From NCBI GenBank assembly GCA_947494305.1, contig CANLUL010000001.1, forward strand, positions 1,116,001 to 1,180,000: a DNA stretch of 64,000 nucleotides. The letters are read 5' to 3'. Below are positions 31,603-34,358 of this stretch, piece after piece (positions within the stretch are counted from its first letter, which is position 1; every line of letters starts with the position of its first letter). Below the pieces are notes generated by a model. The model saw nothing but the letters and a program-made list of their open reading frames with translations, was not told where the DNA came from and did not search any database. The stretch comes from an uncultured Sphingomonadaceae bacterium (GTDB lineage: Bacteria > Pseudomonadota > Alphaproteobacteria > Sphingomonadales > Sphingomonadaceae). The translations under genes were made by a program, and so were the position numbers.

Positions 31603-32055
31603 ATGATTCGCGACTCCGTGAAAACCGCGCAAATTGAGGCGATGAAGGCCAAAGACAAGGATCGCACCGCCGCGACTCGGGCCATTTTGGCCAAGTTCAA
31701 AGACAAGGATATCGAACTGCGGACCAAAGAAGGTTCGCAGGATGACGATACAATGGTCACCGATGTGCTCCAGAAGATGGCAAAACAGCGCCGCGAATCG
31801 ATCTCCATGTATGAAGAAGGCGGACGGACCGAGCTGGCTGAACAAGAAAAATACGAGCTGTCGGTGATCGAAGAATTCCTTCCCGCCCAGCTGAGCGAGG
31901 AAGATACTGCGGCTTTAATCGACGGTATCAAAGCCGAATTAGGCGCAGGCAGCATGAAAGATATGGGCCGGGTCATGGGCGAACTGAAAAAGCGCCACGG
32001 CAGCGAAATTGATATGAGCAAGGCCAGCGCCATGGTGAAGGCGGCTTTGGGATAA
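31603..32055 (+). CDS. yqeY: GatB/YqeY domain protein
   Basis: 150 residues. The family resembles the tRNA-binding tail of the GatB amidotransferase subunit: IRDSVKTAQIEAMKAKDKDR, ATRAILAKFKDKDIELRTKE, QRRESISMYEEGGRTELAEQE, YELSVIEEFLPAQLSEED, MKDMGRVMGELKKRHGSEID and a basic/hydrophobic end ASAMVKAALG. Its role is uncertain, perhaps linked to tRNA-dependent amidation. GAGG lies five bases before the ATG. In alphaproteobacteria it usually sits just upstream of dnaG; here a DUF559 cassette has come between them. Confidence 0.93.
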   Translation: MIRDSVKTAQIEAMKAKDKDRTAATRAILAKFKDKDIELRTKEGSQDDDTMVTDVLQKMAKQRRESISMYEEGGRTELAEQEKYELSVIEEFLPAQLSEEDTAALIDGIKAELGAGSMKDMGRVMGELKKRHGSEIDMSKASAMVKAALG

Positions 32056-32058
32056 ACA

Positions 32059-32093
32059 TCCCCCTCCCGCTTGCGGGAGGGGCTAGGGGTGGG
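32059..32093 (+). repeat. Left copy of a 35-bp perfect inverted repeat (REP-like)
   Basis: This 35-base element is repeated exactly, in reverse orientation, at 32458-32492. It contains its own palindrome, arms CCCCTCCCGC and GCGGGAGGGG around TT, followed by a CTAGGGGTGGG tail. It begins four bases after the yqeY stop. The form, a GC-rich palindrome plus short tail in an intergenic site, is that of a REP sequence. Confidence 0.9.
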
Positions 32094-32109
32094 AACGAGA
32101 TAACGCACA

Positions 32110-32499
32110 GTGGTAACCTTCAAACAAAGAGATACCAATCGCGCTCAATCTCTGCGCAACGAAGCAACACCAGCTGAACGAGAATTGTGGAAATTTCTAA
32201 ATAAGAGGCAGGTTTCTGGTTACAAGTTTAGCAGGCAAATGCCAGTTGGTCCCTATTTTGCAGATTTTCTATGCCGAGAACTCAATGTAATTGTTGAAAT
32301 TGATGGTTTTTCCCATGATGTTCAACAGAGTTATGATGCACGACGAACAAAGGCTTTAGAAGATCATGGGTATAGGGTGATCAGGTTTACTAATCGGGAT
32401 GTGATGGAGAATATTGAGGGCGTTGTGCAGCAAATTGAGACTTTGATCTCGGATATGCCCACCCCTAGCCCCTCCCGCAAGCGGGAGGGGGACTGTTGA
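32110..32499 (+). CDS. DUF559 (Vsr/PD-(D/E)XK-fold) endonuclease-like protein
   Basis: 129 residues with the compact DUF559 core: SLRNEATPAERELWKFLNKRQ, GYKFSRQMPVGPYFADFLCREL, then NVIVEIDGFSHD and YRVIRFTNRDVMENIEGVV. D52 with E63xD65 form a likely metal-binding nuclease site, related in fold to the very-short-patch repair nuclease. Activity has not been shown for most members. The last ~14 residues ([13 protein letters not shown]) are translated from the right inverted repeat, so that part is not likely functional. GTG at 32110 is the start used; support is moderate. Its TGA overlaps the TTG start of dnaG by four bases. Confidence 0.85.
   Translation: MVTFKQRDTNRAQSLRNEATPAERELWKFLNKRQVSGYKFSRQMPVGPYFADFLCRELNVIVEIDGFSHDVQQSYDARRTKALEDHGYRVIRFTNRDVMENIEGVVQQIETLISDMPTPSPSRKREGDC
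32458..32492 (-). repeat. Right copy of the 35-bp inverted repeat, overlapping the end of the DUF559 gene and the dnaG ribosome site
   Basis: Exact reverse complement of 32059-32093. It encodes the C-terminal residues of the DUF559 protein in one frame, and its purine-rich arm (GGGAGGGGG, 32483-32491) ends four bases before the TTG start of dnaG, the right place for a Shine-Dalgarno sequence. Confidence 0.9.
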
Positions 32500-34358
32500 C
32501 CCTTACTCCGCAATGGCTTGATGAACTGCGATCGCGGACAACGCTTTCGACTTTGATCGGACGAACGGTCAAAGTTCAAAAAGCCGGACGCGAGTTCAAA
32601 GCCTGTTGCCCGTTTCATAACGAAAAGACACCCAGCTTTACCATCAATGACGAGAAGGGTTTTTACCACTGCTTTGGCTGCGGCGCCCATGGCGATGCGA
32701 TCCGGTGGATGACCGAGCAGCGCGGACTGGGCTTCATGGACGCGGTGAAAGATCTTGCCGCCGAAGCGCAGATGGAAGTCCCTGCCCCCGATCCACGCGC
32801 TGCACAGCGTCAGGAACAGCGCGCCACGCTGCATGACGTCATGGCGGCAGCGCAGGATTGGTTTGTCACGCAGTTCAACGGTATCGAAGGCACGCAGGCC
32901 CGTGAATATCTAAAAAACCGGGGGATTTCGGAAGAAACCATCCGCGAATTCGGCTTTGGTTTTGCGCCCAATTCTCGAGGCATGTTAAAGGAAGCGCTGT
33001 CCAGTCACGGTATGGATCTACTCATTGAGGGTGGTTTGTTGATCAAGGTAGACGACAAAGACCCTTATGATCGGTTCCGTGGCCGTCTAATGATACCTAT
33101 CCGTGATCCGCGTGGTCGGGTTATCGCCTTTGGTGGCCGGATATTGGGAGATGGCGAGCCGAAATACCTAAACTCGCCAGACACGCCGTTATTCGACAAA
33201 GGGCGCACACTCTACAATCTCGACAAAGCTTCGCCAGCCTCGCGCCAGACGGGGCGGATATTGGTGGTTGAAGGCTATATGGATGCCATCGCCCTGGCAC
33301 AGGCGGGGTTTGAGGACGTCGTCGCGCCGCTGGGAACGGCACTGACCGAACATCAGATCGAACGCATTTGGAAAATGGTGGAAGCGCCGATCCTCTGTTT
33401 TGATGGCGACAGCGCCGGACAGAAAGCGGCAATGCGCGGCGCATTGCGTGCCTTGCCCATCCTGAAGCCCGCACACAGCTTGAACTTTATCTCGCTTCCC
33501 GCTGGTCAGGACCCCGATGATCTGATCCGGTCTGAGGGACCACAGGCTTTCGCGGCCCTGGTGGCAAAACCGCAAATGCTTGGCGATAAAATCTGGCAGG
33601 TTGAATATGACGCGGAACCTTTGATCACCCCGGAAGCCAAAGCAGGTTTGAAGAAACGCGTTGCCGATCATGTCCGTGATATCGCCGACCCCGATATCGC
33701 CCAGCATTATCGCCAGGATTTTCAGGAACGGTATCAACAGGTATTTTTTGCCAAAAAAGATGACCGCAGCCAACAATTTCGGCGATTTGGCAAAGGACAT
33801 TACGGAGGATTATTTTCAAATAGACCAAAAGACGAAACAAAATCCGTTCTCGTCGAGGGGCACGACCTGCGTATTGCCCGCGCGATTGTTGGGGGCTTGG
33901 TTCGTCATCCGTCGCAGATTTCCAAGCATTTTGAAGAACTCTCCACAATCAAAATGGCCGATTCGCAATTACAAACGTTGTTGTCCGAGCTAATTGGTGT
34001 CGCATTAAGCAAAGAAACGCTTGATATGCAGGGCCTTCTTACCATATTGGAACAAACAGATTGTTATAATGTCGCAAAGGGGCTGTTACGGGCCGACGCG
34101 CTGAACTTTACTTTCAACCGCAAGTTGCCAGAAGATACTCCGTCTGAGACACTCGAACGGGCGCATCGTGATTTGGCAGAAGCGATTAAGGTAGTGACGG
34201 CGCGTCCGGGACTGGAAGCGGCTCTGGCGGAGGCAACGCGGCAAGTGCAAGATGATCTCACGGATGAGAGTTTTGCCGAGCAGCAGCGTCTCTTAAAGGC
34301 GAAACAGGAATTTAATGATCGACTGGTCGAAATGACCCAAGTTGATGATTTTGCATAG
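32496..34358 (+). CDS. dnaG: DNA primase DnaG
   Basis: 620 residues. DnaG makes the RNA primers for chromosomal replication. The N-terminal CHC2 zinc-binding domain is seen in [18 protein letters not shown] and [15 protein letters not shown] (Cys, His, Cys, Cys). RNA polymerase basic domain motifs ([54 protein letters not shown]) lead to the TOPRIM metal site [18 protein letters not shown] and [14 protein letters not shown]. The C-terminal helicase-binding part is present and alpha-helical. TTG at 32496 is the start, because [14 protein letters not shown] fits the family N terminus; it overlaps the DUF559 stop. rpoD follows about 20 bp downstream. Confidence 0.96.

Follow-up and report, generated by a model that had tools for sequence, protein, structure and literature searches.

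DUF559 nucleases may be the missing spreaders of a class of repeats widespread in bacterial genomes

Genes for small DUF559 nucleases lie between inverted palindromic arms whose tails covary with their hairpins, arm type matches DUF559 clade, the genes keep conserved chromosomal slots, and the number of palindromes dispersed through a genome, which recur there as doublets in the format of the cassette, depends statistically on the gene. Since a gene type and a scattered repeat type thus co-occur across many bacteria, the enzyme may be the spreader of the repeat. With a probability that we put at roughly 0.6, the cassette would be the enzyme-coding unit of a REPIN-RAYT-like system, its nuclease driving palindrome spread in trans; we infer that the nuclease moves the repeat from the dependence on the gene and from the doublet format, with RAYT as the analogy. 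Both the repeat and the gene family were known before; what is new is their pairing and its consequences.

Introduction

The intrastrand triplex motifs BoxC, PIT and TM combine a pyrimidine/purine hairpin with a mirror third strand and, in the parts of PMC4666352 that concern them, are linked to genomic instability. According to the same parts, the single-stranded E. coli motif forms a triplex in vitro, with none detected in double-stranded DNA or by in vivo footprinting, no remnant of a transposase or integrase was ever seen near the E. coli sites, and PIT elements had acted neither as promoters nor as terminators in earlier studies that it cites. In REP/REPIN-RAYT systems an enzyme gene is flanked by inverted palindromes and short non-autonomous inverted doublets are dispersed through the genome, while CGTC-tagged REPs are dispersed inverted palindrome dimers, chiefly alphaproteobacterial, without a known dedicated transposase, as described in the relevant sections of PMC3733652.

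DUF559 genes have been met in other contexts. Segments with a transposase and DUF559, and GIY-YIG homing endonucleases, are named as recombination hot spots of Legionella pneumophila in the relevant passages of PMC12308824. The Caulobacter DUF559 protein VsrA has been tied to the DNA damage response and SOS induction, with an active site likened to that of Vsr, in passages of PMC12907096, a text with no word starting with "palindrom". The main text of PMC4666352 contains neither DUF559 nor any word beginning with "nuclease" or "endonuclease", and a search among open-licence PMC papers found none that links DUF559 or GIY-YIG genes to such repeats; flanking palindromes are absent from the DUF559 passages of further papers as well.

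Results

A DUF559 cassette between yqeY and dnaG

The window, the whole 64-kb stretch of DNA that was analysed, contains the following features:

31603..32055, + strand: yqeY, left neighbour of the slot, called from its open reading frame
32059..32093, + strand: left arm, with hairpin at 32061-32082, spacer CTA and third-strand tail GGGGTGGG at 32086-32093
32110..32499, + strand: DUF559 nuclease gene, 129 amino acids, GTG start
32458..32492, - strand: right arm, exact inverted copy, with tail at 32458-32465 and hairpin at 32469-32490
32496..34358, + strand: dnaG, bordering the slot on the right, with a TTG start that overlaps the last bases of the DUF559 open reading frame

The two 35-nt arms (32059-32093 and 32458-32492) are 100% complementary and lie 364 nt apart, and they are the sole inverted 16-mer matches at most 1 kb apart across the 64-kb window; ten base shuffles of the window gave 0 such matches in nine cases and 1 in one. 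The palindrome core, with at most three mismatches, occurs at 2 sites in the window against 0.01 expected. The original prediction of a DUF559 gene between perfect 35-bp inverted repeats is therefore borne out, by the only such pair in the window, and its placing of the right arm just before dnaG was right (three bases before the TTG at 32496), but the left arm starts three bases after the yqeY stop, not four. The interior, as had also been noted, is AT-richer than both flanking genes (GC 0.42 vs 0.53 in each).

Each arm consists of a hairpin CCCCTCCCGC/GCGGGAGGGG, a 3-nt spacer and the G-rich tail pointing towards the DUF559 gene; it bears no GTAG tag at the hairpin foot and neither a CGTC tag nor a CCA tail. 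The DUF559 frame continues through the right arm, so that the palindrome codes for C-terminal residues before the reading frame runs into the dnaG start. At the residue matching the TTG start of dnaG in the window, congeners have ATG or GTG, and the annotation of Sphingomonas parapaucimobilis gives the same gene order, GatB/YqeY - DUF559 - dnaG.

The encoded protein matches PF04480 with an E-value of 5e-38 and 129.7 bits, against a curated cut-off of 20.6. Among 38 aligned sequences, that of the window included, E23, Q43, E63, D65, H69 and D76 are invariant and D52 is kept in at least 90%, and these residues form a putative active site. DUF559 profile relatives in the PDB include 3hrl at E 1e-28 and, at E 3e-4, the "mobile intron protein" 3r3p, which we take to be an EDxHD homing endonuclease domain. 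Vsr and the Vsr-fold (EDxHD) homing endonucleases would thus belong to the same fold family as DUF559; they differ from the present case, in which the cassette has inverted palindromic ends and no intron was seen.

Inverted palindromes flank DUF559 genes in general

For each DUF559 domain, the 300 nt on its upstream side were matched locally to the reverse complement of the 300 nt on its downstream side, and the best match gave the score for flanking repeats; windows shifted along the same loci served as controls. The sample comprised 145 distinct DUF559 domains, mostly from Sphingomonadales and with strong matches first (60 loci from the strong end of the list, 50 by similarity to the window protein; arms were scored for strong matches), close orthologues being retained when the protein differed. 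With a threshold of 32 set after seeing the data, inverted repeats flanked 121 of the 144 domains with enough flank vs 4 of 1320 shifted controls, and at a score of at least 36 the figures were 111 of 144 and 0. The genus itself gave 25 of 28 loci at 32 or more, partly overlapping the 144-domain set, and other orders and classes of the phylum 44 of 67 vs 1 of 323 controls, so that the predicted association of the nuclease gene with REP-like palindromes extends well beyond the window. Arms at threshold were missing from 23 of the 144 domains in the main set and from 23 of the 67 outside the order. In 350-nt windows scored without controls, five plasmid loci of Deinococcus and cyanobacteria reached 97, 114, 126, 34 and 25 (four of five at or above threshold), and the E. 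coli DUF559 gene ycjD reached 18, with a triplex repeat on one side only.

Left and right arms within a cassette are more alike (1.75 differences) than arms of different loci (3.03), at 0 of 5000 permutations; of 23 loci, three were dropped for a missing or unequal arm, which left 20. Known REP tags are infrequent, with GTAG or CTAC found anywhere in 24 of 282 DUF559 arms and CGTC or GACG in 36 of 282.

The arms carry the code of a DNA triplex

Beside 234 domains, the arm is a pyrimidine/purine hairpin followed by a tail that tends to mirror its purine arm, with A or T opposite A. Among 431 non-redundant asymmetric arms the mirror was perfect in 284 and the direct order in 86, while tails swapped from another arm gave a perfect mirror in a mean of 30 and a maximum of 46 arms over 200 draws. 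The mirror was the better fit in 247 of these arms and the direct order in 32, with 152 ties. Where all G positions fitted (299 arms), the bases opposite A were A in 290 cases, T in 250, G in 15 and C in 8. The spacer measured 2 or 3 nt in 182 of the 284 mirror-perfect arms, and the window arm obeys the same third-strand mirror rule by inspection.

The triads of an antiparallel purine triplex are G*G.C, A*A.T and T*A.T. The mirror pattern between arm and tail reads as this base-triad code, and on sequence the window arm can be assigned to the published BoxC/PIT/TM kind. A G-quadruplex would be possible in 183 of the 284 mirror-perfect arms; yet arms without two G3 runs still obey the mirror rule (85 of 160 perfect, against a mean of 11 and a maximum of 18 with swapped tails and 20 in direct order), and the triplex is thus preferred as the reason for the tail. 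Searches with other models returned one known RNA family match, below the cut-off of that family, and weak matches only to defence systems; both candidates were set aside.

The published E. coli sites, which share the kind of arm seen in the window, include one beside a gene of this family. Element no. 9 of E. coli K-12 (1,351,204-1,351,239; PMC4666352, Table 1) lies between fabI and ycjD, the latter annotated as DUF559 at 1,351,407-1,351,760. By megablast, ycjD is present in 3365 of 5426 E. coli genomes; in two E. coli genomes the match to fabI-ycjD-sapF ends after fabI, with an efflux operon beside that gene. A difference nevertheless exists: no mobility gene has been published near the E. 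coli sites, whereas here a nuclease gene is the partner.

The gene mostly stays in its slot

Grouped by shared flanking genes, 167 DUF559 loci fell into 53 slots, seven of which hold 94 loci (23, 22, 14, 9, 9, 9 and 8) and 36 a single locus each. The yqeY-dnaG slot accounts for 23 of the 167, in several genera, and all 23 carry type A arms. On the DUF559 tree, which has few columns and many unresolved forks, slot labels changed 18 times, against a minimum of 14 and a mean of 91 after shuffling (small slots, which make up 37 of 163 rows, left out), and arm types A and B changed 4 times vs 39 when shuffled (46 rows left out). As the yqeY-dnaG slot recurs in several genera and the DUF559 tree agrees with the slots, the gene is for the most part passed on where it stands, being lost or regained here and there. 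The cassette had been proposed as a minimal mobile unit; for most loci the conserved slots dismiss a freely hopping unit, and some movement of the gene may have occurred, 36 of 53 slots being single-locus. A cassette at the same place in all relatives, vertically inherited and with an element confined to it, had been named at the outset as the opposite outcome: the same place and largely vertical descent were found, presence in all relatives was not, and the element does occur elsewhere.

Within the genus, the slot is an insertion hot spot beside dnaG. Among 29 congeners it holds a DUF559 gene in 6, a GIY-YIG gene with other palindromes in 6 (L024, L026, L032-L035), in another 6 an unrelated ORF about 355 nt long (L010, L016-L019, L022), and something else or too short a stretch to tell in 3; the other 8 have a clean gap of 4 or 10 nt, and the empty sites that had been looked for therefore exist. 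DUF559 presence in the slot changes six times on the dnaG tree of these congeners. In G008 (L036) the slot contains a lone degraded palindrome-like remnant, as if a cassette had been lost.

This patchiness across species, in which one slot holds DUF559, a GIY-YIG cassette unrelated to it, some other insert or nothing but the clean gap of 4 or 10 nt, would fit a free-standing homing-type nuclease, as would the six changes on the dnaG tree and the profile relative 3r3p. DUF559 would cut the cassette-free allele of the slot, and homologous recombination across yqeY and dnaG would copy the gene in; the palindromes would be ends or recombination stops scattered as by-products. Both nuclease folds, DUF559-type and GIY-YIG, are known from homing endonucleases. 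We nevertheless consider this explanation unlikely, as it does not account for palindromes far from the slot that track the gene across 246 genomes, for doublets that repeat the cassette format, or for ends that keep the triplex code.

Palindromes away from the gene

In the 3.35 Mb of the source genome, the palindrome (at most two mismatches) is found at five places: the two arms, one solo copy and one inverted doublet. A second DUF559 gene of this genome also has perfect inverted flanks, made of another palindrome (24 nt); its neighbours, named from their translations, are presumably a 2-oxo acid dehydrogenase E2 and a dihydrolipoyl dehydrogenase. Solo and doublet copies away from the gene were seen in relatives as well. 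The doublet of the source genome lies in frame within a polymerase gene that we take to be DnaE-type. The insert is absent from G022, the dnaG-sister species, and other congeners have other palindrome families: at this spot, 27 rows comprise the source family once, a second family 4 times, a third 6 times, one partly masked row, 12 without insert and 3 that are uninformative or paralogous. The different in-frame inserts at one spot between congeners (L372-L399) would be translated. No target duplication was recognisable by eye in the polymerase gene or at the yqeY-dnaG slot.

Across 246 Sphingomonadales genomes, DUF559 genes and two exact palindrome patterns were counted, with backwards-pattern controls of 0 or 1; the patterns and the cut for a strong DUF559 match (E <= 1e-20) were set after seeing the data. 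Five or more palindromes occurred in 81 of the 111 genomes with strong DUF559 vs 2 of the 135 others (45 with weak DUF559 matches and 90 with none), the medians being 17 and 0. Palindrome number correlated with DUF559 over the 246 genomes (Spearman 0.75), and mean palindrome number was higher with strong DUF559 in 10 of 10 genera and in 4 families holding both kinds, this comparison within genera and families being the sole phylogenetic control for related, non-independent loci and genomes. Fewer than five palindromes were counted in 30 of the 111 strong-DUF559 genomes, 8 of which had none.

REP elements are mobilised by RAYT, so Y1 transposases were a candidate for the spread. Not one match to Y1_Tnp (RAYT/IS200) was obtained in the whole source genome, although the identical search matched 5 of 14 control genomes; for this family, the one searched, the reported absence of a transposase was confirmed. 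In the 246 genomes, Y1 transposases are present in 48. The 22 genomes with Y1_Tnp and no strong DUF559 have a palindrome median of 0 and none reaches five, whereas the 85 with strong DUF559 and no Y1_Tnp have a median of 14. RAYT as mobiliser is thus out, in keeping with the original prediction, and Y1 transposases do not explain the palindrome numbers.

A strict pairing of one palindrome type with one DUF559 type within a genome was only partly borne out. The type A share of palindromes had a median of 0.98 in 10 genomes with only type A cassettes sampled and of 0.58 in 33 with only type B sampled, most of which hold further DUF559 genes outside the sample, and so the share tracks the sampled cassettes loosely.

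Perfect pyrimidine/purine hairpins numbered 15 in 400 kb of G036 and 58 in 369 kb of G270, against 0 in two base shuffles of each, and all but two have a one-sided mirror tail with one mismatch allowed. Among hairpin pairs less than 150 nt apart in these 769 kb, 28 of 29 point both tails inward, and the last includes a hairpin of unclassified type. In 90 of 185 flanked DUF559 loci the tails are perfect and face inward at either end, in 7 they face outward at either end, and the rest are mixed or unclassifiable. The DUF559 cassette is therefore the same tails-inward format as the dispersed doublets, with a gene inside.

These observations bear on two other explanations. That a small gene merely has transcription terminators, or GC-rich inserts placed by chance, on its two sides would fit arms that are mostly intergenic hairpins, but hardly the 4 of 1320 controls, the mirror rule or the tails-inward doublets, nor the lack of promoter or terminator activity of PIT elements in work cited in sections of PMC4666352, and we give this account almost no credence. 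Host-side hairpin processing seems to us distinctly improbable. Under it, the palindromes spread otherwise, by replication slippage or through enzymes other than DUF559, which would be a repair nuclease specific for structure and kept to clear them, gene and repeats being mutually dependent with the gene not the spreader. Vsr enzymes are indeed repair nucleases, the SOS link of VsrA (in passages of PMC12907096) points the same way, and so does the instability attributed to triplex repeats in parts of PMC4666352. Clearing should, however, lower repeat number, yet the correlation is positive (+0.75), though a repeat-rich genome might keep the gene; and a repair gene need not be bounded by repeats in most loci.

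A second nuclease kind

Thirty GIY-YIG loci of the genus (L248-L277) were fetched, one of them from the source genome (L271, C1:1053679). Inverted palindromes at threshold flanked 20 of the 27 with full flanks vs 0 of 108 controls, and three of the seven loci without palindromes are presumably uvrC. Both arms matched a loose pattern of CGTC tag and CCA tail in 4 of the 20 loci.

Discussion

We favour a system in which a small PD-(D/E)XK (Vsr-like) DUF559 endonuclease would be paired with its own palindrome, a hairpin and third-strand tail that could fit an antiparallel triplex on one DNA strand, of the BoxC/PIT/TM type. The gene, between two tails-inward copies and long kept in one chromosomal slot, would encode a nuclease that recognises the same folded ends elsewhere, in trans, and drives the spread of solo stems and of short doublets, whose two stems have their tails inward and lie about 40-140 nt apart. 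It might cut or nick the folded end, and copying might then rely on repair or take place at replication forks, on DNA that is single-stranded. The spreading part would be the palindrome and the gene would mostly stay, as judged from their distributions rather than from movement seen directly. Dispersal of the palindromes by the nuclease is likewise argued from analogy.

RAYT genes mostly descend without leaving their place, and the type of REP goes with the lineage of the RAYT. The DUF559 system shares with REP/REPIN-RAYT a palindrome-flanked enzyme gene, dispersed inverted doublets and a repeat number that tracks the gene; it differs in having a PD-(D/E)XK nuclease for the Y1 HUH transposase and a third-strand tail for the GTAG tag. 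CGTC-REPs are likewise dispersed inverted dimers without a known transposase, and CGTC-like arms flank some small GIY-YIG genes, unlike the DUF559 arms of the window. The ends of the cassette are inverted, as in insertion sequences and MITEs, and by eye no target duplication was recognisable.

A broader proposal is tentative, and we lean slightly against it: in this form of transposase-free selfish DNA, stand-alone nucleases with two or more unrelated folds, DUF559 and small GIY-YIG, would each multiply a palindrome of its own in the form of non-autonomous doublets, and DUF559 would act by recognising the single-strand triplex fold. If it were true, the BoxC/PIT/TM repeats and the CGTC REPs would both gain their missing enzymes. 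Two published open questions become testable, with DUF559 and small GIY-YIG genes as concrete candidates. A domain of unknown function that spans proteobacteria to cyanobacteria and Deinococcus would gain a role, and the spread of DNA would here depend on a nuclease able to read a fold made of three strands.
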